Assembly (NCBI RefSeq): GCF_001040705.1 | Contig: NZ_CVQP01000001.1 | Location: 674,324 to 738,323 of the forward strand | Length of the DNA stretch: 64,000 bases | From: Rhodococcus sp. RD6.2 | GTDB taxonomy: Bacteria > Actinomycetota > Actinomycetes > Mycobacteriales > Mycobacteriaceae | Direction: 5' to 3' | Shown: piece after piece, positions 21,773 through 50,312 of the stretch | Numbering within the stretch: position 1 is the first letter of the stretch | Layout: every line of letters starts with the position of its first letter | Translations under genes and position numbers: made by a program | The notes under the pieces: model-generated | The model's input: only the letters and a program-made list of their open reading frames with translations | Database searches by the model: none | Told to the model about the DNA's origin: nothing

Positions 21773-21941
21773 ACCCGATCCGTTCCTTGTCGCTGGATGT
21801 CGCGATCGCCGCGACACCGTGGAGTGAACCATCGACCGATGGTTCGGAACAGAAGGTAACAATGACGATGATTCGCAGGGAGCGAATCGGACATTTGTCG
21901 GTGTCGAGAGGTAACAGTTTCTCGGGATATCAGGTTTCGGG

Positions 21942-28709: not shown

Positions 28710-29810
28710 GTGCGGACCACACTCGACGTCCGTGAGTTGGGTCGAGCGACCCTCGCGCGGCAGTACCTGCTCGAACCGACGGACACGCCGGTCGAGAAGG
28801 TGGTGCGGCACCTGTACGGCCTGCAGGCACAGTCGCCGACCGCGCCGTACTTCGCGTTGTGGGCGCGGGTGGCGGGTTTCCGCCCCGAGCAGCTGTCGGG
28901 GTTGATCGAGGACCGCGCGGTCGTGCGCATGGTGTCGATGCGCGGGACGGTGCACGCGCTGACGGCAGCGGATGCACTGGAACTGCGGCCCTGGACGCAG
29001 CCGATCATGGACCGCGACCTCAGGACGAACACGCAGCACTCCAAGGCCCTGGCCGGTTTCGACCGCGAGGCACTGGAGTCCTGGTCGCGGGCACTGCTGG
29101 AGGAGACCCCGTCGACGCTGGCGGCCCTGCGGCCGCAACTCGCGCAGCGGTGGCCGGACCGCGACCCGGCGGCGCTTGCCCACGCCGTGCGGGATGTGCT
29201 CCCGCTGGTGCAGGTTCCGCCGCGCGGACTGTGGGGTCGGTCGGGGCAGCCGGCCTGCACGACGTTGGAGCATTGGACGGGATCTGTTCTCGCCGAACCG
29301 GATCCGGAGCGGATCGTGCTCCGCTACCTCGCGTCGTACGGTCCGGCATCGGTGGCCGATGCGCAGGCGTGGTCGGGTCTGACGCGTCTCGGTGAGGTTT
29401 TCGACAGGTTACGTGCCCGGCTGCGGATGTTCGGCGGCCCGGACGGTGCCGAACTGTTCGACCTGCCCGACGCGCCGCGTCCGGGCGGGGACGTTCCCGC
29501 GCCGGTCCGGATTCTCGCACCGTTCGACAGTCTGCTGCTCTCGCACGCGAACCGTTCCCGGGTGTTCGACGACGCGTACCGTCGGGTTCTGTTCACCGTC
29601 AACGGCATCGTGAAACCGACGTTGCTCGTGGACGGCAGCGTCGCCGGCCACGTCACGCTGAGCGCGAACCGGAGCAGTGCGGCCGTCGACGTCACGCCCC
29701 TGCGGTCGTTGTCGGCGCGGGTGGTGGCGTCGGTCGAAGCAGAGGCGTTGCGTTTGCTCGCGTTCGCCCATCCGGGGCTCGATCACGAGGTGCGCGTGGG
29801 TTCGGTATGA
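28710..29810 (+). CDS. Winged-helix DNA-binding (HTH_42) family protein
   Basis: Product of 366 residues of the family annotated as winged-helix DNA-binding domain protein, whose better-known relatives (AlkZ/YcaQ) are DNA glycosylases for bulky or cross-linked lesions. Seen here: LGRATLARQYLLEP, the HLYGLQAQSPTAPYFALWAR block, VRMVSMRGTVHAL, and PFDSLLLSHANRSRVF near the C-terminus. The QxQ element of AlkZ enzymes appears as GLQAQ. A glycosylase role is an inference. The GTG at 28710 is preferred over 28698 because GGGGAG precedes it. Confidence 0.75.
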   Translation: MRTTLDVRELGRATLARQYLLEPTDTPVEKVVRHLYGLQAQSPTAPYFALWARVAGFRPEQLSGLIEDRAVVRMVSMRGTVHALTAADALELRPWTQPIMDRDLRTNTQHSKALAGFDREALESWSRALLEETPSTLAALRPQLAQRWPDRDPAALAHAVRDVLPLVQVPPRGLWGRSGQPACTTLEHWTGSVLAEPDPERIVLRYLASYGPASVADAQAWSGLTRLGEVFDRLRARLRMFGGPDGAELFDLPDAPRPGGDVPAPVRILAPFDSLLLSHANRSRVFDDAYRRVLFTVNGIVKPTLLVDGSVAGHVTLSANRSSAAVDVTPLRSLSARVVASVEAEALRLLAFAHPGLDHEVRVGSV

Positions 29811-29892
29811 CCTCACGTGCCGGCCGCCTCGCTGTGAGATGCGGGTCACACCGCCCGTGAGCGGGCAAAACGGTCACCGGGTGTTAGATGGG

Positions 29893-30483
29893 ATGGTGAT
29901 CGACAACGTCCTGACCTCAGTGCGCGCTCACCTGGTCGAGAGCTTCGGTGGACCCGAGCCGTCCGCGGCCTCGGTGACGTTCCTCGGCCTCGAACCGCTC
30001 GAGGTGCTCCGGTTCCCCGCCGATTCCGAGGACGTCGTCCGCTATGCCACCCTCGGCTGCTCCCGGCACCCGATGGCCGATCCCAGTGACCTGGTCGCCG
30101 ATCCGGTACGCGGCCCGAGGGCCGAGTTGGTCCTGACCCTGCGCGGCGGACTCGACGTGGCGTCGGGTGTGCACCGGTCCCTCGCCATACTCGCCGCGGC
30201 GCCTGCGGTGGAGGGTGTCGTCCTCGCCGTCGACGGGCTCCTCGACCTCGGCGAGCCGCTGTGGAAGGGCGCCCCCTTCACCGCAATTTTGTTGGGGGAC
30301 AGTGGTGTCGAACCGCTTTCCCTGCCGGAGCCTGCGGACCCGGTGCAGTTCCTGGACGCGGTGCCGATCACGGGAACCGAGGCGGCATGGGTTCGGTTGC
30401 GCGGTGCGGCGGCGCTCCGCGACGCATGGGCAGAAGCGGGGATCGACGTCCGCGATCCGCGACGTGGCCAGGCGTCCCTATAG
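29893..30483 (+). CDS. Suppressor-of-fused-like domain protein
   Basis: Small cytosolic protein of 196 residues resembling bacterial members of the suppressor-of-fused domain family: HLVESFGGPEPSAASVTF, YATLGCSRHPMADPS, RAELVLTLRG, and VQFLDAVPITGTEAAW. Bacterial members are often immunity- or toxin-associated or of unknown role; here it stands alone. Start ATG 29893 or GTG 29896. Its last six bases overlap the end of corA on the opposite strand. Confidence 0.7.
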   Translation: MVIDNVLTSVRAHLVESFGGPEPSAASVTFLGLEPLEVLRFPADSEDVVRYATLGCSRHPMADPSDLVADPVRGPRAELVLTLRGGLDVASGVHRSLAILAAAPAVEGVVLAVDGLLDLGEPLWKGAPFTAILLGDSGVEPLSLPEPADPVQFLDAVPITGTEAAWVRLRGAAALRDAWAEAGIDVRDPRRGQASL

Positions 30484-40115: not shown

Positions 40116-40172
40116 GTTGTCGGACGACTCCGCTACGTTGCGGGAGTTCGCCGAACCGAGCCGAGGAGTGGT

Positions 40173-40691
40173 GTGTTGACCGACTGGGAGTCCTCCAGCA
40201 TGGCGCGGGTGCTGCCGCCCGCCCGTCCCCGGACGTTGGCGAAGGTGCCCTTCGTCGAACTCGCCGACGGACGTCTGCAGGGGGTCGTGTCGAGTGGTTC
40301 GGACATTGGACGGGTCTACGTCTCGTCGGTGTCCGCCGGCAGTTACGAATTCGCGTGCAGTACCAACAACAATCGACCCTGTGGTGGGGCCCGGGGCACC
40401 TTCTGCAAGCACATCGCGACCCTGATCGACGAGGCCGCGCTCCAGTACGGCGTCGACCGGGTGGCGCGTTACCTGCGAGTCGACGTCACCGGCGACGTGT
40501 CCGGCGAGCAGCCGACCGGCCGGGACATCGCCGAGCGGATGCGTGACGCGGGCCCGGCTCGCGCCGACGGCACTGCCGCTGCCGCAGTGTTCAGCCAGTT
40601 CCTGCGTCACCTCACCTACCTGGAACACCCGCCGACCACCACGCCGGTGCCGGAACTGCACTGGTTCCCGACGGCCGGGGCGGTGCGCTGA
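40173..40691 (+). CDS. SWIM zinc-finger protein of a MoxR-vWA operon (YehQ-like role)
   Basis: Protein of 172 residues with a SWIM-type zinc-binding motif: C62, C70, C78 and H80 (ACSTNNNRPCGG, then TFCKHI). SWIM domains bind nucleic acid or protein. The start is GTG 40173 with GAGGAG about 6 nt upstream. The last base of its stop is the first base of the next gene's ATG (TGATG), so all five genes to 47276 are translationally linked. In E. coli the SWIM protein YehQ is encoded with MoxR ATPase YehL and vWA protein YehP; this gene appears to be the counterpart, though much shorter. Confidence 0.8.
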   Translation: MLTDWESSSMARVLPPARPRTLAKVPFVELADGRLQGVVSSGSDIGRVYVSSVSAGSYEFACSTNNNRPCGGARGTFCKHIATLIDEAALQYGVDRVARYLRVDVTGDVSGEQPTGRDIAERMRDAGPARADGTAAAAVFSQFLRHLTYLEHPPTTTPVPELHWFPTAGAVR

Positions 40692-42073
40692 TGCGCGCCG
40701 ACCTCCTCGCCGTCGCGGGTCTGGACGACGCACTGGCTGTCGTCGACGCCGTCGATCGGGTGCTCGTCGCCGGTCTGCTGCGGCCCCAGCCCGCGCAGGC
40801 CGCCGACCTCACCCGGCTCGCCGCGAGTGTCGCCGGAACGCCGCTGGCCGCACGCGTCGCGGAGGCAGCGGACAAGGCCGCGGCGGGCACCGCGGGCCCG
40901 GAACACCTTCTCGCGCTTGCCGCCGCGCGTACCGCGCTGCTCGGCTCCGTCCACGACGCGCTGACGGACAGGGTCGCTGCCGCAATCGGCAGGGTGGTGG
41001 GCGAGTGGGAGTCCGCACCCCCCGCCGCGGCCATCCCGTCGAATCTGCAGGACGCCGCCTGCGCGTGGCTGTCCGACCTGGCGCGCACCGGTTGGCAGGG
41101 CATCGACTCCGATCTCGTCGCGGGCGCGACGCCGGTCGTCAGCGCGATGCTGCCGGACCCGGCACTGCGACGACTCGCCACTGTCCTCGACGGTTTCGCC
41201 GGCGAACTCGCAGCCTCGTGTCCGGGGGCGTCGCTGGATCGGATTCCGGCCCGCCGGTGGGGCGACCTGTGGTCCCGGGCGATGCTCCTGACCCGGTCCG
41301 GTGTCGCCGACTCGCCCGCCGCAGGAACGGTCTCGGGCCGTCTCCTCCCGCTCGGCGTCGACCTGCAGGAGCACGCGACGGCGGCGCAGGCCCAGGTTCA
41401 CGCGGTGTTCGAACCCGCAGACGGGGGCGCACCGCGACTGGTGCGGGCGAGCGTGTCGGTGCCGAAACCGGAAACGGTCGTCGGTGCCGGTGTGTGGCAA
41501 CTGCTCCGGCCGCACCTGTCCCTGCTCGCCGCTGCCGGCGACCACCACGCGGTCGAGGTCGCGGACATGCCGATCACCGCGGAGGGGGACCTGCTCTGGC
41601 AGGACGAGTTGGCCACGCGCGGCGCCGCCGCCGATCCGTTCGCCACGGCCCGGCTCGTCCTGCCCACCGCCACCGCGGCGGCGGTCGCGCCGCTCGACCG
41701 GCACCCCGCGCGGATCGCGGAGCCGGTCTTCCTGGACGGCTACACCGTGGACGGTGAACCGGAGGAACTGACATTCGCCGTTGCCGGACAACGGATTCCG
41801 GTCGACACGGATCGCATTCCCGCGGCGAGCCCGCTGACGCCCTCGGCGGTCGCGGCGTCGACCGCGTGCATCGGTCTTCTCCGGTGGGACGACGGTTCGT
41901 TCGTGGTGCAACCGCTGGCCGTCCTCGCCGTAGTGAAGCGCAAGACGGTCGCCGTCCACGCAGGCGCCTGGGCCGCGGGCACCACCGACAAGGTGGGTGC
42001 GAAGGCGGAGAAGGCCGCCACTGCAGCGGTCGACGCGCTCCGCGAGCGGGCCGGAAAGCTGCTGCGCGCATGA
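40691..42073 (+). CDS. Uncharacterised protein of the MoxR-vWA operon
   Basis: Protein of 460 residues, not recognised. It has no signal peptide, no membrane helix and no evident catalytic motif. The N-terminal 230 residues are Ala/Leu-rich and probably helical; the C-terminal half has more strand-like segments (LVRASVSVPKPETVV, HHAVEVADMPITAEGDLLW) and a charged C-terminal helix. It is flanked by the SWIM gene (1-nt overlap) and the vWA gene (4-nt ATGA overlap), which makes it an integral part of the system and probably a structural or adaptor subunit (inference). Confidence 0.8.
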   Translation: MRADLLAVAGLDDALAVVDAVDRVLVAGLLRPQPAQAADLTRLAASVAGTPLAARVAEAADKAAAGTAGPEHLLALAAARTALLGSVHDALTDRVAAAIGRVVGEWESAPPAAAIPSNLQDAACAWLSDLARTGWQGIDSDLVAGATPVVSAMLPDPALRRLATVLDGFAGELAASCPGASLDRIPARRWGDLWSRAMLLTRSGVADSPAAGTVSGRLLPLGVDLQEHATAAQAQVHAVFEPADGGAPRLVRASVSVPKPETVVGAGVWQLLRPHLSLLAAAGDHHAVEVADMPITAEGDLLWQDELATRGAAADPFATARLVLPTATAAAVAPLDRHPARIAEPVFLDGYTVDGEPEELTFAVAGQRIPVDTDRIPAASPLTPSAVAASTACIGLLRWDDGSFVVQPLAVLAVVKRKTVAVHAGAWAAGTTDKVGAKAEKAATAAVDALRERAGKLLRA

Positions 42074-43356
42074 CCGCCGACGACAATCGCCGTCAGGTTC
42101 TCTACTGGCGCCTGCTCTCCCGGCTCTTCGACCCCGAGGAGCAGGCGTCGCTCGAATCGGCGAGCCTCGCCGTCGTCGACGACATCGGTCTGCCGGCCGC
42201 CCTGCTCGACCCACAGGCGTCCGTGGACTCCGTGGTGCAGCGTCACCCGGACCTGGCCACCGAGTTCGACGGGCTGATGGTCGCGGACACCGACACCGAG
42301 CGGGACGGGGAGGCCGAGGTGCGCCGCGCCGCGCTGGTGTCGAAGGTGCTCCTGAACGTCTTCGCGACCGGGTCCGGCAACGTCACCGCACAGCAACTGG
42401 GCCGGTGGCAGTCCGATGCCGGGTGGCTCCAGCGCGCGCTCGGAGCGGCGCCCGGCGACCGCGGCGGTCCGCTCGGACCCGAATTGGGTTCCCTCGAGGC
42501 CGATCTGGTGAATCGGATGCAGCTGCGCGAGGTGCTCGCCGACCCTGCCCTCGCCGCGAGGCTGACACCGAGCATGTCGCTGATCGAGCAGTTGCTGCGG
42601 GACAAGAGCAACCTGTCCGGTGTCGCGCTGGCCAACGCGAAGTCCCTCATCCGCCGGTATGTCGACGAGGTCGCCGAGGTGCTTCGCAACGAGGTCGAGA
42701 GTGCGACGGTGGGCACGATCGACCGCTCGATCCCACCCAAACGCGTCTACCGCAATCTCGATCTCGACCGCACCGTGTGGAAGAACCTCCCGAACTGGAG
42801 CCCGGAGGACGAGCGGCTGTACGTCGACCGCCTCTACTACCGTCACACGTCCCGGCGGACGACGCCGCAACGGCTGATCGTGGTCGTCGACCAGTCCGGG
42901 TCGATGGTCGACTCGATGGTCAACTGCGCGATCCTCGCGTCGATCTTCGCGGGTCTGCCGAAGGTGGACGTGCACCTGATCGCATACGACACGCAGGCAC
43001 TCGACCTCACCCCGTGGGTGCGCGACCCGTTCGAGATGTTGTTGCGCACCAAACTCGGTGGCGGAAACGACGGCATGGTCGCGATGTCGCTGACCCAGCC
43101 GAAGATCGCCGAACCGCGCAACACGGTCGTGGTGTGGATCTCCGATTTCTACGAGACCAGGGTCGAGCAACTCTTCGAGTCCATGGCCGCGATCCACCGC
43201 TCCGGCGCCAAGTTCATCCCGGTCGGCTCGGTCACCAGCGGGGGCCGCGGCAACGTCAACCCGTGGTTCCGGGACCGGTTCAAGGACCTCGGTGCCCCGG
43301 TCGTCTCCGGCCACATCGGCAAGCTCGTCCACGAGCTCAAGACTTTCCTGACCTAG
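42070..43356 (+). CDS. vWA-domain protein of the MoxR-vWA operon (YehP-like)
   Basis: Cytosolic protein of 428 residues. The first 260 residues are helical; the C-terminal von Willebrand A domain starts at about residue 268 and has an intact MIDAS: D274-x-S276-x-S278 in VVDQSGSM, the Gly/Asn/Asp loop GGGNDGM near 330-336 and ISDFYE with D359. Such vWA proteins are paired with MoxR ATPases, which remodel or load metal-dependent complexes. It is coupled by a 4-bp overlap to the preceding gene and separated by 12 bp with a ribosome site (AAAGG) from the ATPase. Confidence 0.88.
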   Translation: MTADDNRRQVLYWRLLSRLFDPEEQASLESASLAVVDDIGLPAALLDPQASVDSVVQRHPDLATEFDGLMVADTDTERDGEAEVRRAALVSKVLLNVFATGSGNVTAQQLGRWQSDAGWLQRALGAAPGDRGGPLGPELGSLEADLVNRMQLREVLADPALAARLTPSMSLIEQLLRDKSNLSGVALANAKSLIRRYVDEVAEVLRNEVESATVGTIDRSIPPKRVYRNLDLDRTVWKNLPNWSPEDERLYVDRLYYRHTSRRTTPQRLIVVVDQSGSMVDSMVNCAILASIFAGLPKVDVHLIAYDTQALDLTPWVRDPFEMLLRTKLGGGNDGMVAMSLTQPKIAEPRNTVVVWISDFYETRVEQLFESMAAIHRSGAKFIPVGSVTSGGRGNVNPWFRDRFKDLGAPVVSGHIGKLVHELKTFLT

Positions 43357-43368
43357 AAAGGCAACGAC

Positions 43369-44481
43369 ATGTCCGACCTGCTGCGCGCCCCCGCCGAGCA
43401 CAAATACGCCGAGGAGCTGGACTGGCTCGAGTCCATCGACACCGGCCCCAAACCGTTCGCGTGGCGACTGTCCCCGAAGATGGTGCGGCTGTTCGTCCTC
43501 GGCTCCGACCGTTCCGACGGACTGGATCGCGAGATCGCCCAGAAGTGGTTCGGTGACCGCAGTTTCGTCGAGCGCGCCATCGTCACCCTCGCGTCCGACC
43601 GTGGACTGCTGCTGATCGGCGACCCGGGCACCGGAAAGAGCTGGCTCGCCGAGTTGTTGGCCGCCGCGATCAGCCGCAACTCGACGCTCGTGGTGCAGGG
43701 CACCGCGGGCACCACCGAGGATCAGATCAAGTACTCGTGGAACGTGTCGATGGTCATCGCGAAGGGACAGTCACGGGAGTCGATGATCCCGTCGCCGATC
43801 ATGACCGCGATGGAGACCGGCGCGATCGGCCGGTTCGAGGAGCTCACCCGTTCCACCAGCGACGTGCAGGACGCCCTCATCTCGATCCTGTCGGAGAAGT
43901 ACATCTCGGTGCCGGAACTCGACAGCGACAACATCGTCTTCGCCAAGCCCGGCTTCTCGATCATCGCGACCGCCAACAGTCGCGACCGCGGCGTCAACGA
44001 CCTTTCGTCGGCCCTCAAGCGGCGCTTCAACTTCGTCCGGATCCCGGTGGTGACCAACAAGAAGAGCGAAACCGAGATCGTCCGCTTCCGTACCGAGGAG
44101 CTCCTGCGCCGCCACGAGATCGAACTCGACGTTCCTCCGACGCTCCTCGACGTGCTGCTGCGTAGCTTCGCCGACCTGCGTGCCGCCGCGACCGCCGCGG
44201 GCAGCGACGACGAGAAGTTGGAGTCCGCGCTGTCCACCGCCGAGCAGATCGGCGTCCTCGAGGACGCGATCCTGCACAGCAACTTCTTCGGCGACAGCGA
44301 GTTGTCCGCCCGCACACTGGCGTCATCGCTCGTCGGGTCGCTGGCCCGGCGCCAGCCGGAGGATCTCGCGATCCTCAACAAGTACCTGCACGGGGTGGTG
44401 GAGCCGCGTAGCAAGGACGAGGGCGGTCAGTGGCCGGAGTTCCTCGAAGGCGGCCGCGACACCATCGCCACTCTGTCGTGA
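43369..44481 (+). CDS. MoxR-type AAA+ ATPase (YehL-like)
   Basis: ATPase of 370 residues. Walker A GDPGTGKS is at 84-91, Walker B is RFEEL around 155-159 (the usual DE appears as EE), sensor 1 is TANSRD at 201-206 and the arginine finger lies in ALKRRFNF at 215-222. The C-terminal lid is helical. The layout fits the MoxR branch called YehL rather than RavA or CGN. It likely forms hexamers that act on the vWA partner and other operon proteins. Its stop overlaps the next start (GTGA). Confidence 0.9.
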   Translation: MSDLLRAPAEHKYAEELDWLESIDTGPKPFAWRLSPKMVRLFVLGSDRSDGLDREIAQKWFGDRSFVERAIVTLASDRGLLLIGDPGTGKSWLAELLAAAISRNSTLVVQGTAGTTEDQIKYSWNVSMVIAKGQSRESMIPSPIMTAMETGAIGRFEELTRSTSDVQDALISILSEKYISVPELDSDNIVFAKPGFSIIATANSRDRGVNDLSSALKRRFNFVRIPVVTNKKSETEIVRFRTEELLRRHEIELDVPPTLLDVLLRSFADLRAAATAAGSDDEKLESALSTAEQIGVLEDAILHSNFFGDSELSARTLASSLVGSLARRQPEDLAILNKYLHGVVEPRSKDEGGQWPEFLEGGRDTIATLS

Positions 44482-47276
44482 CCGGGTCGATCGACGTTCC
44501 GGACGTTCGGGGGGAGTTCGATGCGCTCCGCACCCAGTTACGGAGCGCTGCAGACGCTTTCGCGGGAGGTTCCGATGCACTGTCCGGAATCCTCCTCGGC
44601 ATCGTCGACGACGTCGACCGGGCGGTCGCGGAGCCCCTGGAGATCTTTCCGGTCTGTCACCACTCACCGGCCTCGGCCATCGCGATGGCGCGGCGTCTGC
44701 GGGAGAAGCAGCCGAAGGTGGTGTACCTGGAGCTGTGCGAGGACATGGCGCCGCTGCTGACGGAACTGCGCAACTGCCGGCTGCCGGTCGCGGTGCAGGC
44801 CTTCGCGACCGAGGTCGTGGGGTTCCCGCAGGACTGGGCGCCGCTGTCGGTGGTTGCCCCCATCACCGAGGCGTCGGCCGAGTACCAGGCGATCGCCTAC
44901 GCACTCGACACCCCTGGCGTCGAACTGGTGCTGGTGGACCGATCGTCCGACCACGTCTTCCAGTGGGGCCCCCGCGACACTCCGCCGGAGGAGAGCGCCG
45001 AATCGGACCCCGACGCAGCGCCGCCCGAGGAGGAGGCGGTCCTGCACGGCGATGCGATCGGTATCGAGATCGGCGACCTGCGACCGCGTTTCGCGGAACT
45101 CGAGGAGCACCTGCTGCGGCACGGGAAGGTGCGGCACTGGTCGGAGTGGTGGCACCAGTACGTGGAGGTGCCGCTCGGGGACAGTGACCACGACACGTAC
45201 CGGCAGGTCATGACGCTGATCGGCAGCCTGTTCCGGCGCCTCGCCCCCGGTGACGCGCGCAGCGTCCGGGTCGACGAGGACCGGGAACGGTACATGTGGA
45301 CGCGGATGCGCGAGCACCTCGCCGCGACGGGCACCGACCCCGCGGACTGCCTGTACGTGTGCGGCGCCTTCCACGCCGCCAGCAGGGTGGCCGAGTTCGG
45401 CGTCGAGGGCACCGACACCTTCGAGATCTCCCCGCCGAGCGGAAGCGTGTGGCAGCACGGACTCATCCCGTCGAGTCACGCCGCGATCGAGGCGCAGTTC
45501 GGCCTCGCGGGCGGCTCGGTGTCGATCGCCGCGACCGAGTGGGCGAAGAACGTGAAGCGAACGCGCGTCCGTCCGTTCCGCCTCGATGGGCAGGCGGGGA
45601 CGAAACGTGTTCCGCAGAAGGAGCTTCCGGCTCCGATCCCGGACGCGGTCCCCGCGGATGCGCTCACCGGGTTCCTGCAGCGTCCGCCGGCGCTCGACCA
45701 TCTCGACGAGACCGAACTGCTCGGCTGGTCGGTCGAGATCGTGCGCGCCGCACGTCGCAACGGCTATCTGGCATCCACGGCGGACGCCATCGCGGTGTTC
45801 GAGACGTCGATCCTGTTGGCCGGTATGCGTGACCGCGCGAAGCCGACGCCGTACGACTTCCAGGACGCGGCGATCACCTGCATCGAGAAGGATGTGGTTC
45901 CCGGGCGCCGCGACGTGCGGCGACTCGTCGAGATCATGATGGGCGGCGACCGGGTCGGCCGGGTCGGCTACGACGCGCTGCCGCCGCTCGCCCGGGACGT
46001 TCACGACAGGTTGGCCCCGCTGAACCTGCCGCTGCAGCAGCGCGGAGTGCGCCGGGCCCTGCTCGACATCGCCGCGAACCCGCAGCTGGAACGGTGCTCG
46101 GACCTGCTCTGGATGCTCCGGTACCTGATGCCGCACGGAGCGGCCCGCCCGATCATGGGCGAGCGGAGGCTGGGGGAGCGGCCGATTCAGGAGTCCTGGG
46201 ATCTGGCGCTCGGTACCCACCAGCGGGCACTGATCGAACTCGGCTACGAGGGTGTCAGCATCGAACAGGTGCTGGAGCAGCGGCTGCGGCGCACGGCCCA
46301 CGACCCCCGCGCGACCGCTGCGGTGGTTCTGGGGACGGTCGAGGACGCGACGCTGTACCTGCGAAGTCCCCGTCTCGCCGGTGAGCTGGGCGCCCGCGCG
46401 CTCGAGGCGCTGTCCACGGAACGCGGGGTGGAGGGCGCGCCGGAGGTGTTGGTTCGGATCCGGCGTCTGCTCGCGTACCACCGCACGGCCGACCCCGTGC
46501 TTCCGGCGTGGATCGAGGCGTTCGTCAAGGCCGGTTACGCGCACTACTGCACCCTGTTGCCGACCGCTTTCACCGATGAGGACGCCACCGCACCGCAGGT
46601 GGCCGCGATGCTCGGCTTCCTGTTCGGCATGGAGTCGCTCGCCCTCTCCCTCGGCTGCGACCGCAGCCAGCTGGAACTGGCTGTCCGGCAGTCGCATCCG
46701 GATGAGCCGAGCCGGATCGCCCTGCTGTGGGCGGCACAGATTCAGCTGGGTGAGCTGACCCGCGCGGAGCTGCGTGACCGATGTGACGACCTGCTGGCCA
46801 ATCTGTTGACGCTGCCCGCGTATCCGCGCTACCTCAGTGGATTCGTCCACGCACTCGACCCGGTCCCCGGTCTCGTCGACTTCGTGGTCGAAGCCGTCTC
46901 CACCGCCTTCGCGCGGCTGCCCGACGGTGTGCTGATCCCGTGGTTGCCCACCCTGATCACCACTCTCCGGAAGAGCGGGACGCACCTGGCGCCCCGGCTC
47001 ACCCGCGAGGCAGCCCGCACGTTCCCCGCCGCACTACCCGCGCTCGACGCGTGGATTCCGCCGTGGTTGCAGAGCGAGGCCGTCCCGGTGCGCGCCGCGG
47101 CGGGGGAGAGGGTGGCCCTGCTCGCGGCACACCCCGCGACGTGCGACGCTGCCGCGGATTTGCTCGGCTACGACGGCGCGTGGGCGCAGGACTCCGAACC
47201 GTCCCGCAGCGTCGGCCTCCTCACCGAGCACCCCGCGACGGCCGCGGCACTGGAGGCGCTCCTGGCCGCGCGGTGA
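44478..47276 (+). CDS. DUF5682-like large protein of the MoxR-vWA operon (YehM-like)
   Basis: Protein of 932 residues, the largest of the operon. The N-terminal region of about 380 residues contains HHSPAS at 61-66 and YLELCEDM at 83-90, then GAFHAASR near 305, a histidine/acid pattern reminiscent of TraB/ChaN/EreA-type hydrolases. The remaining 550 residues are a long series of helices resembling HEAT-like repeats. No membrane segment is seen. It starts at GTG 44478 overlapping the ATPase stop. Assignment to DUF5682 is by recognition of the N-terminal motifs and context; the molecular function is unknown. Confidence 0.78.
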   Translation: MTGSIDVPDVRGEFDALRTQLRSAADAFAGGSDALSGILLGIVDDVDRAVAEPLEIFPVCHHSPASAIAMARRLREKQPKVVYLELCEDMAPLLTELRNCRLPVAVQAFATEVVGFPQDWAPLSVVAPITEASAEYQAIAYALDTPGVELVLVDRSSDHVFQWGPRDTPPEESAESDPDAAPPEEEAVLHGDAIGIEIGDLRPRFAELEEHLLRHGKVRHWSEWWHQYVEVPLGDSDHDTYRQVMTLIGSLFRRLAPGDARSVRVDEDRERYMWTRMREHLAATGTDPADCLYVCGAFHAASRVAEFGVEGTDTFEISPPSGSVWQHGLIPSSHAAIEAQFGLAGGSVSIAATEWAKNVKRTRVRPFRLDGQAGTKRVPQKELPAPIPDAVPADALTGFLQRPPALDHLDETELLGWSVEIVRAARRNGYLASTADAIAVFETSILLAGMRDRAKPTPYDFQDAAITCIEKDVVPGRRDVRRLVEIMMGGDRVGRVGYDALPPLARDVHDRLAPLNLPLQQRGVRRALLDIAANPQLERCSDLLWMLRYLMPHGAARPIMGERRLGERPIQESWDLALGTHQRALIELGYEGVSIEQVLEQRLRRTAHDPRATAAVVLGTVEDATLYLRSPRLAGELGARALEALSTERGVEGAPEVLVRIRRLLAYHRTADPVLPAWIEAFVKAGYAHYCTLLPTAFTDEDATAPQVAAMLGFLFGMESLALSLGCDRSQLELAVRQSHPDEPSRIALLWAAQIQLGELTRAELRDRCDDLLANLLTLPAYPRYLSGFVHALDPVPGLVDFVVEAVSTAFARLPDGVLIPWLPTLITTLRKSGTHLAPRLTREAARTFPAALPALDAWIPPWLQSEAVPVRAAAGERVALLAAHPATCDAAADLLGYDGAWAQDSEPSRSVGLLTEHPATAAALEALLAAR

Positions 47277-47347: not shown

Positions 47348-47400
47348 GTCATGGTGTACGGCAACCGCCGCACGCTCACGGACACGACAGGAGTCGAACC

Positions 47401-47760
47401 ATGAAGTACCTGATGCTCATCAACGCAGCCGCCGATCAGATCGACGAGCAGGCTGGCGGCTCGGCCGACTGCACGCCCGCGGACTGGATGGCCTACGACA
47501 AGCAGGTCCACGACGCGGGGATTTTCGTCTCCGGTGAATCCCTCGCCGACCTCGTCACGGCCACCGCCGTTCGGGTCGACGCGTCGGGGGAGCGCACGAT
47601 CACGACGGACGGGCCGTTCGCCGAGTCCCGCGAGGTGCTCGGTGGGTTCTACGTCATCGACGTCCCCGATCTCGACGTCGCGTTGGACTGGGCGGCGCGC
47701 TGCCCGGGTGCCCGTGGCGGCGGCACCGTCGTCGTCCGTCCGGTCGCCGACTTCGGCTGA
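47401..47760 (+). CDS. DGPF/YCII-domain protein
   Basis: Small protein of 119 residues with the YCII fold, ferredoxin-like. The start MKYLMLIN and the DGPFAESREVLGGFYVIDV block give the DGPF signature. This family is the standard neighbour of ECF42 sigma factors, as here, where the sigma gene follows after 4 bp. Its role is unclear; a sensor or target of the sigma factor has been proposed for relatives. AGGAG at 47389-47393 supports the ATG. Confidence 0.9.
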   Translation: MKYLMLINAAADQIDEQAGGSADCTPADWMAYDKQVHDAGIFVSGESLADLVTATAVRVDASGERTITTDGPFAESREVLGGFYVIDVPDLDVALDWAARCPGARGGGTVVVRPVADFG

Positions 47761-47764
47761 CCCG

Positions 47765-49021
47765 ATGGCCGAGCAGACGCGGGCGCGGGCATCCGTGGAA
47801 GCCGTCTTCCGTGAGGAGTACGGCAGGCTGCTCGCGACCCTCGTCCGCAGGTTCGGTGACCTCGACCTGGCGGAGGAGGTCGCGTCCGACGCGCTCGAGG
47901 TCGCGTTGGTGCGGTGGCCGGTCGACGGCGTCCCCACCAAGCCCGGTGCCTGGCTGGTGACCACGGCGAGGCGTCGGGCCGTCGACCGGTTGCGCCGCGA
48001 CCAGACCTACGCGGCGCGGCTGGCGGTGCTGCAGGTCGAGGCGGACCGCGCCGATCCGGCGCCGCCTGCCGATGCCGACGGGGGCCTGCCCGACGAGCGG
48101 CTTCAACTGTTCTTCACCTGCGCTCATCCCGCACTCCCCGAGGAGGATCGCGGCGCCCTGACCCTGCGGTGCCTCGCGGGGTTGACGACTCCGGAGGTCG
48201 CTCGGGCGTATCTGGTTCCCGCAGCGACGATGGCGCAGCGAATCGTGCGGGCGAAGAAGAAAATTCGGCTCGCGCGAATACCCTTCCGGGTGCCGGGAGC
48301 GGACGAGCTGCCCGGTCGGCTTCCGGGGGTGTTGCGGGTCCTCTACTCCATCTTCACCGAGGGGTACGTCGCCAGTGCGGGACCGGACCTGCAGCGCCCC
48401 GACGTCGCGGAGGAGGCGATCCGGCTGACGCGGATCCTGCACCGCCTGCTCCCCGAGGAAGGCGAGGTGACGGGACTGCTCGCGCTGATGTTGCTCATCC
48501 ACGCCAGGAGGGAGGCCCGCACCGGGAGCGGCGGCGAACTCGTGCTGCTGGCGGACCAGGACCGGGGCCGCTGGGATCGCGCGATGATCGACGAGGGTGC
48601 CGGGCTGGTGGTCACCGCACTGACCGGTCGTCCGGCCGGGCAGTATGGGGTACAGGCCGCGATCGCCGCCCTGCACGACGAGGCGCCCGACGTCCCCGGC
48701 ACGGACTGGCCGCAGATCGTCGCGCTGTACGACGTGCTGCGCACGCTGGCGCCGTCGCCGATCGTCGAGCTGAACCGCGCGGTCGCGGTGGCGATGCAGG
48801 ACGGGCCCGAGGCCGGGCTGGAGCTGCTCGACACGTTGGCAGGGGACGCGCAGCTGCGCGGCCACCACCCGTACCCGGCGGCCCGAGCGGAGCTGCTGGC
48901 CCGGCTCGGCCGGAACACCGAGGCCGCCGTGGCCTACCGAGACGCCCTCGAACTGGCAGGCACCGACCCAGAGCGGGACCACCTGCGAGTGCGTCTGCGG
49001 GAGGTCGAGCGCGGTGACTGA
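47765..49021 (+). CDS. ECF42-type RNA polymerase sigma factor with C-terminal extension
   Basis: Sigma factor of 418 residues. Sigma region 2 (VFREEYGRLLATLVRRFGDLDLAEEV) and region 4 (LAGLTTPEVARAYLVPAATMAQRIVRAKKKI) occupy the first 180 residues. The rest is the large helical, TPR-like extension that defines ECF42 (for example VLYSIFTEGYVAS and LLALMLLIHARREAR). No anti-sigma gene is present; the extension is thought to control activity in relatives. It is 4 bp after the DGPF gene, with which it forms an operon. Confidence 0.92.
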   Translation: MAEQTRARASVEAVFREEYGRLLATLVRRFGDLDLAEEVASDALEVALVRWPVDGVPTKPGAWLVTTARRRAVDRLRRDQTYAARLAVLQVEADRADPAPPADADGGLPDERLQLFFTCAHPALPEEDRGALTLRCLAGLTTPEVARAYLVPAATMAQRIVRAKKKIRLARIPFRVPGADELPGRLPGVLRVLYSIFTEGYVASAGPDLQRPDVAEEAIRLTRILHRLLPEEGEVTGLLALMLLIHARREARTGSGGELVLLADQDRGRWDRAMIDEGAGLVVTALTGRPAGQYGVQAAIAALHDEAPDVPGTDWPQIVALYDVLRTLAPSPIVELNRAVAVAMQDGPEAGLELLDTLAGDAQLRGHHPYPAARAELLARLGRNTEAAVAYRDALELAGTDPERDHLRVRLREVERGD

Positions 49022-49172
49022 CCTGGATTGGTCCGAGTACACGACTCGTCGGGCGGATATCGGGTAGTCCGCTACTCGCGCCCGGCCGACGACCCCGGAG
49101 CAGAGTCGGAAGGGCACGACGGACCGGCGTCGGCACACGGCGCGGCGCTCGTGCTCGAAGGAGTGCGACATC

Positions 49173-50312
49173 ATGCGAACCGGAATCGTGGAAATGGGGC
49201 TTCACCCGCGGGGAGCTCCGGACTCCCTGCTGCGCGCGAGCCGACTGCTCGCTACGGCGGCGGGCGCCGATTCGATGTGGCTTCCGGACCATCTGATCGG
49301 AATCGTGCCCGCGTCGATCTGGGCACCACGGCACATGGCCGTCGCCCGCGTGGTGCAGCGCGGCGACGGCTACTACGAGCCGTGGACCGCGCTCGGATAC
49401 CTGGCGGCGCGCAACCGACTTTCACGGCTGAGACTGGGGGTGGGCGTCACCGACAGCGGTCGCCGCAATCCGGCGGTGACCGCCCAGGCCGCCGCGACCC
49501 TGCATCTGCTGACCCGTGGCCGGGCCATTCTCGGCATCGGACCGGGAGAGCGGGAGGGAAACCAGCCCTACGGAGTCGAATGGTCGAAGCCGGTTGCCCG
49601 GTTCGAGGAGGCGTTGGCGACGATTCGGCTGCTGTGGGATTCCGGTGGACGGCCGGTGAGCCGGGACTCGGACTTCTTCCCACTGCGCGACGCGGTGTTC
49701 GACGTCCCGCCGCACCGCGGGACCCGGCCCCAGATCTGGATCGGCGCGCACGGCTCCCGGATGCTCCGGTCTGTGGGCCGGTATGCGGACGCGTGGTTCC
49801 CGGGGTTTCCGCAGCGACCCAAGGACTACGGCGCGAAGCTGACGCGGATACGGACGGCCGCATCGGATGCGGGGCGGTCCCCGGACGCGATCACGCCTGC
49901 GGGATGGTTCGCGGTCGCCCCGGCACGTTCCCGCGCCGAGGCCGACGAGATGCTCGGGTCCGTGGGCGCAAGGGTCCTCGCGCTGTGCGTCTCCGCCGAC
50001 GTGTGGGCTCGGCACGGCGCCGAGCATCCGATGGGTGCGAATTTCAGTGGCGTGCAGGATCTCCTGCCGCAGACGTTGAGCGAGGAGCAGGCGCTCGCCT
50101 GTGCGAACCAGGTTCCGGAATCGCTGCTTCGGGAGTGCGCCATCTGCGGGACGCCTGCCGACATCCTCGACCAGTTCGCGGAATGGCACGATCACGGACT
50201 GCGCTACCCCGTCCTGCTGAACGCCGGGCCGATGTGCCACACGAGCGTGCGCGCCGGCATGCTCACGGCGGGTCCGTTCCTGAAGGTGTTGCGGGCGCTC
50301 AAGCGGCTGTGA
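49173..50312 (+). CDS. LLM-class oxidoreductase resembling phthiodiolone ketoreductase
   Basis: Luciferase-like TIM-barrel oxidoreductase, F420- or flavin-dependent, 379 residues. From memory the segments TDSGRRNPAVTAQAAATLHL, TRGRAILGIGPGEREGNQPY and GVEWSKPVARFEEALATIR are almost identical to M. tuberculosis Rv2951c, which reduces phthiodiolone in the synthesis of virulence lipids. The C-terminal WARHGAEHPMGANFSGVQDL and HDHGLRYPVLLN segments also match. No polyketide synthase or DIM genes are near. AAGGAG at 49158-49163 supports the ATG. The physiological substrate is unknown. Confidence 0.87.
   Translation: MRTGIVEMGLHPRGAPDSLLRASRLLATAAGADSMWLPDHLIGIVPASIWAPRHMAVARVVQRGDGYYEPWTALGYLAARNRLSRLRLGVGVTDSGRRNPAVTAQAAATLHLLTRGRAILGIGPGEREGNQPYGVEWSKPVARFEEALATIRLLWDSGGRPVSRDSDFFPLRDAVFDVPPHRGTRPQIWIGAHGSRMLRSVGRYADAWFPGFPQRPKDYGAKLTRIRTAASDAGRSPDAITPAGWFAVAPARSRAEADEMLGSVGARVLALCVSADVWARHGAEHPMGANFSGVQDLLPQTLSEEQALACANQVPESLLRECAICGTPADILDQFAEWHDHGLRYPVLLNAGPMCHTSVRAGMLTAGPFLKVLRALKRL

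Follow-up and report, generated by a model that had tools for sequence, protein, structure and literature searches.

The closest described relatives of the locus reported here are the products of Escherichia coli yehL, yehM, yehP and yehQ, a single operon encoding a MoxR-type AAA+ ATPase, a DUF5682 protein, a von Willebrand factor A (vWA) protein and a SWIM protein. We found no settled function in the literature for DUF5682 or YehL-type MoxR operons. In MoxR–vWA pairs the client is captured via the vWA protein and remodelled with ATP (PMC7159879). We analysed a five-gene operon (genes A to E) within a 64,000-nucleotide stretch of the 5.57 Mb genome of Rhodococcus sp. RD6.2 (NZ_CVQP01000001.1, positions 674,324 to 738,323; hereafter the window, whose numbering is used throughout). 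The operon unites the same kinds of domain as that of E. coli and is probably a horizontally transferred, DNA-damage-inducible YehL/MoxR–vWA remodelling machine, whose induction and target we infer. Its genes, each an open reading frame (ORF), and the likely ribosome-binding site are as follows.

40163..40168, plus strand: GAGGAG, probable ribosome-binding site, located 7 nt ahead of the TTG of gene A (from the sequence).
40176..40691, plus strand: gene A, encoding a SWIM-like protein of 171 aa with a TTG start (ORF and start survey).
40691..42073, plus strand: gene B, orphan protein of 460 aa (ORF).
42070..43356, plus strand: gene C, CoxE/YehP-like vWA protein, 428 aa (PF05762, 1.6e-27; YehP, 33%, 2.7e-42).
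43369..44481, plus strand: gene D, YehL-like MoxR AAA+ ATPase, 370 aa (AAA_5, 2.3e-37; YehL, 41%, 7.8e-83).
44478..47276, plus strand: gene E, DUF5682 (YehM-like) protein, 932 aa (orthologue to PF18934, 3.2e-30; profile comparison).

The sequence-only reading that preceded this work had the layout of the five consecutive ORFs exactly: A and B overlap by 1 bp, B and C by 4 bp, C and D are separated by 12 bp, and D and E overlap by 4 bp. It began gene A at GTG 40173; TTG 40176 is more likely from a survey of 100 orthologous loci (genomes partly the same), in which a loose pattern located 77 starts, 70 of them TTG and 7 GTG.

Only C and D are named over cut-off by Pfam, NCBIfam and PADLOC models. 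The AAA_5 match of D and its 41% identity to YehL over 340 aa identify it as a MoxR AAA+ ATPase. By pairwise identity D is close to YehL and apparently not outside the YehL group, and its vWA partner is YehP-like. The best NCBIfam model, GvpN, reaches 47.1 bits where its cut-off is 266.8, and a bpMoxR match (E=0.023) is also below that model's cut-off. The Walker A motif GDPGTGKS lies at 43618–43641; this motif, the R and EE of RFEE, ATAN and SALKRRF are invariant in all 84 aligned sequences and the Phe of RFEE is kept in 82. Orthologues of D average 92% identity to the window protein. Protein C matches the CoxE-like vWA family PF05762 and the YehP of E. coli K-12. Its metal-ion-dependent adhesion site had been taken as complete. 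DxSxS and the second Asp are indeed invariant (84/84), but the Thr position is occupied by Asn333 in the window; among C orthologues it is Thr in 53 of 84 sequences and Asn in 31. Protein C (42070–43353) also matches phrog_31592 (2.6e-38), a family of unannotated function, and a YehP-like protein occurs in some phage-derived records. RavA–ViaA, CoxD–CoxE, GvpN and other MoxR–vWA chaperones, NorQ–NorD being a further such pair, probably share with C and D the principle of a ring ATPase and a vWA adaptor that remodel a client, whereas their MoxR subfamilies, clients and operons are others.

The assignment of E to DUF5682 is borne out by profile–profile comparison, with a probability of 99.4% over 459 columns against at most 0.3% for three shuffles. 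This figure comes from a template cleaned of gappy columns; uncleaned runs (1 column; 703 columns) were not used. Window E itself has no Pfam match at E<=1. Its orthologue L034, 67% identical, matches PF18934 with 105.6 bits (cut-off 26; 3.2e-30), orthologue L079 gives no match at E<=10, and a copy 77% identical in NZ_CP023408, near which lies an N-6 DNA methylase gene, is annotated as a DUF5682 family protein. E also matches E. coli YehM at its N terminus (1.9e-4). The identities of D to YehL and C to YehP, with the profile match between E and YehM, support the proposed kinship to yehL, yehM and yehP.

Residues CHHS (60–63), E85, E88, D89 and CGAFHA (295–300) of E are invariant in 84/84 aligned sequences, and H62, D154, E270 and H299 remain so in an alignment of 38 sequences that also takes in distant DUF5682 proteins. 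Mean identity of E orthologues to the window protein is 79%. These invariant N-terminal His, Glu and Asp residues resemble active-site residues, and we take their motif order to be similar to that of EreA/TraB/ChaN-like proteins. An EreA/TraB-type hydrolase was nonetheless not established: hhalign comparison of the N terminus with erythromycin esterases was not significant (probability 0.4–0.6 with DUF5682 sequences, 0.1 with the window type alone), and only one of 16 N termini reached E=0.055 against TraB. PF01963 (TraB) was found in 0 of 118 genomes of the class, hence no TraB profile was available. In loci L121 and L140 the E match region, if read straight through, contains an in-frame stop, a possible frameshift or decay. 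A literature search on the term DUF5682 returned no paper.

Three versions of the gene set were recognized: the canonical yehI-L-M-P-Q order, which L043 and L047 share, a SWIM–DUF5691–MoxR–DUF5682–vWA arrangement, here called the sister operon, and the window type. Among the loci inspected, it is the sister operon that prevails in the family of the window. The window operon departs from that of E. coli in its gene order (SWIM–B–vWA–MoxR–DUF5682 as against MoxR–DUF5682–vWA–SWIM), in a small atypical SWIM part and a separate orphan B where E. coli has one YehQ of 614 aa, in the absence of a DUF4132 neighbour and in its damage-type promoter. The sister operon resembles it in its MoxR (42–50% identical to that of the window), its DUF5682, vWA and SWIM partners and, in part of the loci, its promoter class; it differs by a canonical SWIM protein of ~430 aa, DUF5691 in place of B and another gene order. 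Three same-family genomes (group g22) carry a second MoxR, of the 46–48% kind, beside the window type. SWIM and DUF5691 are joined in one frame, a natural fusion, in L044 and L041 (in L041 as an ORF only). On the mobilizable Iodobacter plasmid pl1 (L203) a canonical DUF4132–MoxR–DUF5682–vWA–SWIM operon adjoins a type I restriction-modification system, and its SWIM protein (YehQ) comprises two overlapping ORFs.

Proteins A and B had no significant match among E. coli K-12 proteins, and no Pfam, NCBIfam or PADLOC model reached its cut-off with either. Protein A carries the following site.

40356..40412, plus strand: zinc ligands of A, C53, C61, C69 and H71, numbered from ATG 40200 (alignment).

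The pattern C-x7-C-x7-C-x-H is invariant at its four ligands in all 82 aligned sequences. Naming A a SWIM zinc finger does not hold, as its ligand spacing is not CxC...CxH and the Pfam SWIM family (PF04434) gives no match at E<=1. Protein B is the least conserved of the five among orthologues and, as had been said of it, is unrecognised: our searches returned no relative outside this operon type. We considered A and B as a split YehQ, since their combined length (171+460 aa) is near the 614 aa of YehQ and B is placed like its second half. This was rejected: no significant match emerged when A or B was compared by hhalign with YehQ, the SWIM protein of the sister operon and DUF5691, and the comparison of B with YehQ did not rise above six shuffles. 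A match of B to DUF5682 (98.9%, 29 columns) was an artefact that vanished once gappy columns were removed.

The best functional clue to the operon, missed in the sequence-only reading, is an element upstream of gene A.

40117..40139, plus strand: putative RecA-NDp/PafBC-type promoter, TTGTCGGAC-N8-TACGTT (conserved place in orthologues, published consensus).

It begins just past the TetR stop codon and lies 37–59 bp ahead of the TTG. For the actinobacterial promoter that responds to DNA damage independently of RecA, the consensus is tTGTCRgtg - 8 nt - TannnT (PMC5656591), and the window site fits the core TGTCRG-N10-TAnnnT exactly. RecA-NDp promoters have been tied to PafBC, single-stranded DNA and a UV-inducible Streptomyces gene (PMC8223512, PMC6789036, PMC11804915, PMC5087735). 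When 68 non-redundant upstream regions were searched without a preset motif, the word pair GTTG+TCAG occurred in 52 and TGTC-N15-GTTC in 51, against a shuffled maximum of 14 for any pair; these pairs come from the coding start and from a block before it. Because both halves of this block and their spacing fit the published consensus, we assign it to the RecA-NDp/PafBC type. Patterns for SigR, SigE, LexA and HrdB promoters were met in 0 or 1 of the 68.

The full pattern TTGTCRGTG-N8-TAnnnT is matched in 103 upstream regions with no mismatch in 73, one in 24, two in 4 and three in 2. With six doubly fetched loci removed, the 97 distinct regions divide into 69, 23, 4 and 1, so that 92 of 97 carry a site with at most one mismatch. 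Such a site was absent from 2000 control stretches of 300 bp and from 1030 shuffles, which held two-mismatch sites in 12 and 3 cases, and from 398,019 bp of control regions in the same genomes. It lies 104–222 bp upstream in 20/20 sampled loci (at 104–118 bp in 17). The exact core occurs in 89/103 window-type loci (83/97 distinct), including the window, its congener G095 and three g22 genomes, as against 15 of 20,000 control stretches. The site of the window stands where those of its orthologues stand. A second RecA-NDp-like site with one mismatch lies at 21895–21917 (plus strand), with no gene assigned to it. In consensus and position the upstream element resembles promoters of the PafBC regulon, although no MoxR–vWA–DUF5682 operon is named as a member in the parts of the literature consulted. 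According to a table in PMC5656591, a pafBC mutant of Mycobacterium smegmatis has less of MoxR1, MoxR2 and a von Willebrand protein; these may be of the present type, and we treat them as a lead only.

The sister operon carries the exact core in 19 of 34 loci, always 28–30 bp from the SWIM gene. That spacing before the first gene (L037–L052, L247–L266) suggests leaderless damage-induced transcripts. With the full pattern, 33 sister loci gave one mismatch in 6, two in 7, three in 17 and more in 3, where controls reached one, two and three mismatches in 9, 45 and 301 of 3000.

The genes behind this putative promoter form a fixed five-gene unit that is patchy and horizontally acquired. A scan of genome contigs with E gave 534 relatives among 571 pattern matches; we retained the best 80, most of them from Streptomyces and Amycolatopsis. 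In 78 of these 80 loci A-B-C-D-E follow in the same order on one strand, the other two being contig ends, so the genes are consistently together. The order is likewise kept in 20/20 sampled Streptomyces-like (g34) loci. This arrangement is far beyond chance. There is no constant sixth gene: the widest neighbour cluster reaches 18 of the best 80 loci, and flanks vary from clade to clade. The upstream TetR gene was rejected as a member, being present in 6/6 genus members tested, four of which lack the operon. Ada–AlkA, Ogt and AlkB were rejected as constant partners, Ada–AlkA with Ogt occurring in 4/20 sampled and 3/80 best loci (one genome in both). Ada–AlkA and Ogt lie upstream of the operon in Streptomyces-like loci L130, L133, L135, L211, L213, L216 and L218 (L133 and L213 belong to the same genome); AlkB accompanies them in every locus except L211.

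Window-type E was found in 6 of 396 genomes sampled across the phylum and in 22/101 Streptomyces-like genomes. Of 151 family genomes, 5 carry window-type MoxR (>=88% identity), as do 2/6 of the genus; 42 further family genomes have only MoxR versions of 42–50% identity. The TetR-side flank is present in all six genus genomes tested. In G081 this flank is followed by 58 bases and then by a stretch starting at window position 49050, immediately ahead of the third gene on the right side of the operon; therefore an insertion or a loss of the operon together with its neighbours took place there. ORFs at 47400–50312, right of the operon, sit elsewhere in relatives and the site is variable on both sides; they include what we take to be an ECF sigma ORF and an LLM-type oxidoreductase. 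E is 79–81% identical to the window protein in six Streptomyces-like genomes and 67–68% in three g22 genomes of the same family, whereas a 600-aa piece of the housekeeping protein Kgd shows the reverse, 60–62% and 80–82% (taking the best copy in each genome and ignoring weaker second ones of 55–61%). This reversal shows horizontal acquisition of the operon. Of the mobility or lineage-specific retention proposed earlier, horizontal acquisition is thus supported by patchiness, flank comparison and the E/Kgd reversal. In a FastTree phylogeny of E, the window and G095 (100%) fall within an unresolved Pseudonocardiaceae/Streptomyces group and g22 forms its own branch (100%); the tree carries less weight than the identities do, its 80 loci having been chosen as best matches to the window. 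Five records of a plasmid collection carry E; two are ~0.95 Mb long and the other three between 3.1 and 11.9 Mb. Elsewhere in the window, ARAGORN reported a tmRNA at 29601–30386 (minus strand, 786 bases), starred and with an odd tag, which is probably a false positive.

Beyond the promoter, the family assignments and the operon structure, we infer the following course of events. Damage would expose single-stranded DNA and activate PafBC, which with the housekeeping RNA polymerase would start the operon at 40117–40139. The five proteins would be produced together from their overlapping genes. D would form an ATP-driven ring with C as vWA adaptor, as in other MoxR–vWA pairs; for the ATP-driven machine proposed earlier the component families are supported, and assembly itself is presumed from them. 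A, with its SWIM-like zinc site and perhaps with B, would recognise the target, for which a DNA-bound or DNA-repair complex is the likeliest candidate, and the ring would remodel or activate E, or act on the target through it. A machine that remodels such a complex seems likeliest because a damage promoter, a SWIM-type zinc protein and a large DUF5682 protein coincide. SWIM proteins act with RAD51 in eukaryotes (PMC12167799, PMC6180034), a parallel that we regard as a lead only. A more specific version, offered tentatively, is that the operon may be a hitherto unrecognised, transferable arm of the actinobacterial PafBC response in which the SWIM-like protein and the MoxR–vWA ring remodel recombination or replication complexes on damaged DNA, in the manner in which the SWIM-containing Shu complex acts on RAD51, with the DUF5682 protein as hydrolytic effector.

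Several observations weigh against a damage-inducible remodelling machine. The window site departs from the full pattern at two of 12 positions and that of G095 at three, all of them lower-case consensus positions, and this genus has some of the weakest sites found. By itself the site of the window lacks significance: four such sites occur in the window where 1.94 are expected, and 15 of 100 shuffles had as many. Among sister operons 15/34 are without the exact core and 20/33 have at least three mismatches to the full pattern. Moreover, A appears best termed SWIM-like only and not a canonical SWIM protein, B is apparently without recognised relatives, and a catalytic nature of E would be read from its motifs.

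The alternative that survives best, though we consider it unlikely, is an anti-phage or anti-plasmid conflict system in which MoxR–vWA would set a threshold, the SWIM-like protein and B would sense foreign nucleic acid, E would be the effector and the damage promoter would arm the system on infection damage. The operon is patchy and horizontally transferred, lies within 15% of the contig end in 8 of 11 chromosome-sized Streptomyces-like contigs, and has an N-6 DNA methylase gene close to its NZ_CP023408 copy, while the canonical operon of the Iodobacter plasmid adjoins a type I restriction system. Further MoxR–vWA conflict systems are known, among them 'ternary' ones that join, like the window, a MoxR and vWA core with further proteins (PMC7159879). 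Against this, their third components (VMAP, iSTAND, FtsH, beta-propeller) were not found over cut-off in the five window proteins, nor were variable effectors, and the unit is strongly conserved (D 92% and E 79% mean identity to the window). The earlier suggestion of a foreign element as target likewise found no backing. Neighbours within 4.6 kb, called with a simple codon model, gave 18 PADLOC protein-model matches at E<=1e-10 (148/165 called genes scanned) as against 24 in matched control regions (134/134 genes), counts that give a defence role no support. From the PADLOC models the five genes drew only weak generic matches, the best being mad8 (6.7e-7, AAA domain), followed by TerY (0.0011, vWA). 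E was matched in no phage record, and two peptide patterns had no match in viral contigs.

Less likely again is a chaperone of housekeeping type that, like CoxD/CoxE or RavA/ViaA, would serve assembly or metal insertion, its client being E or an enzyme encoded elsewhere and its stress regulation incidental. C is a CoxE-like vWA protein, several MoxR–vWA pairs mature metal enzymes or complexes (PMC7159879, PMC3893208), and the invariant His, Glu and Asp of E could hold a metal; but no enzyme gene constantly accompanies the operon, genomes can dispense with the unit and its occurrence is patchy (22/101 Streptomyces-like genomes, 2/6 in the genus), and a damage-class promoter precedes both operon types. 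That the upstream element is another conserved signal, with an operon role unrelated to DNA damage, is the least probable reading: the evidence is of sequence, with two mismatches at the window site and no exact core in 15/34 sister operons, yet an openly found block fits the published consensus in both halves and spacing, and none of 2000 control stretches matches as well as do 97 of 103 upstream regions.

We thus favour the damage-inducible remodelling machine. No paper recognised as describing this operon was returned by our literature searches, in the parts of the sources consulted. If the operon is indeed such an arm of the PafBC response, kinship would point to a like role for E. coli yehLMPQ. 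The occurrence of a damage-type promoter before two divergent versions of the operon makes a role in the damage response directly testable.

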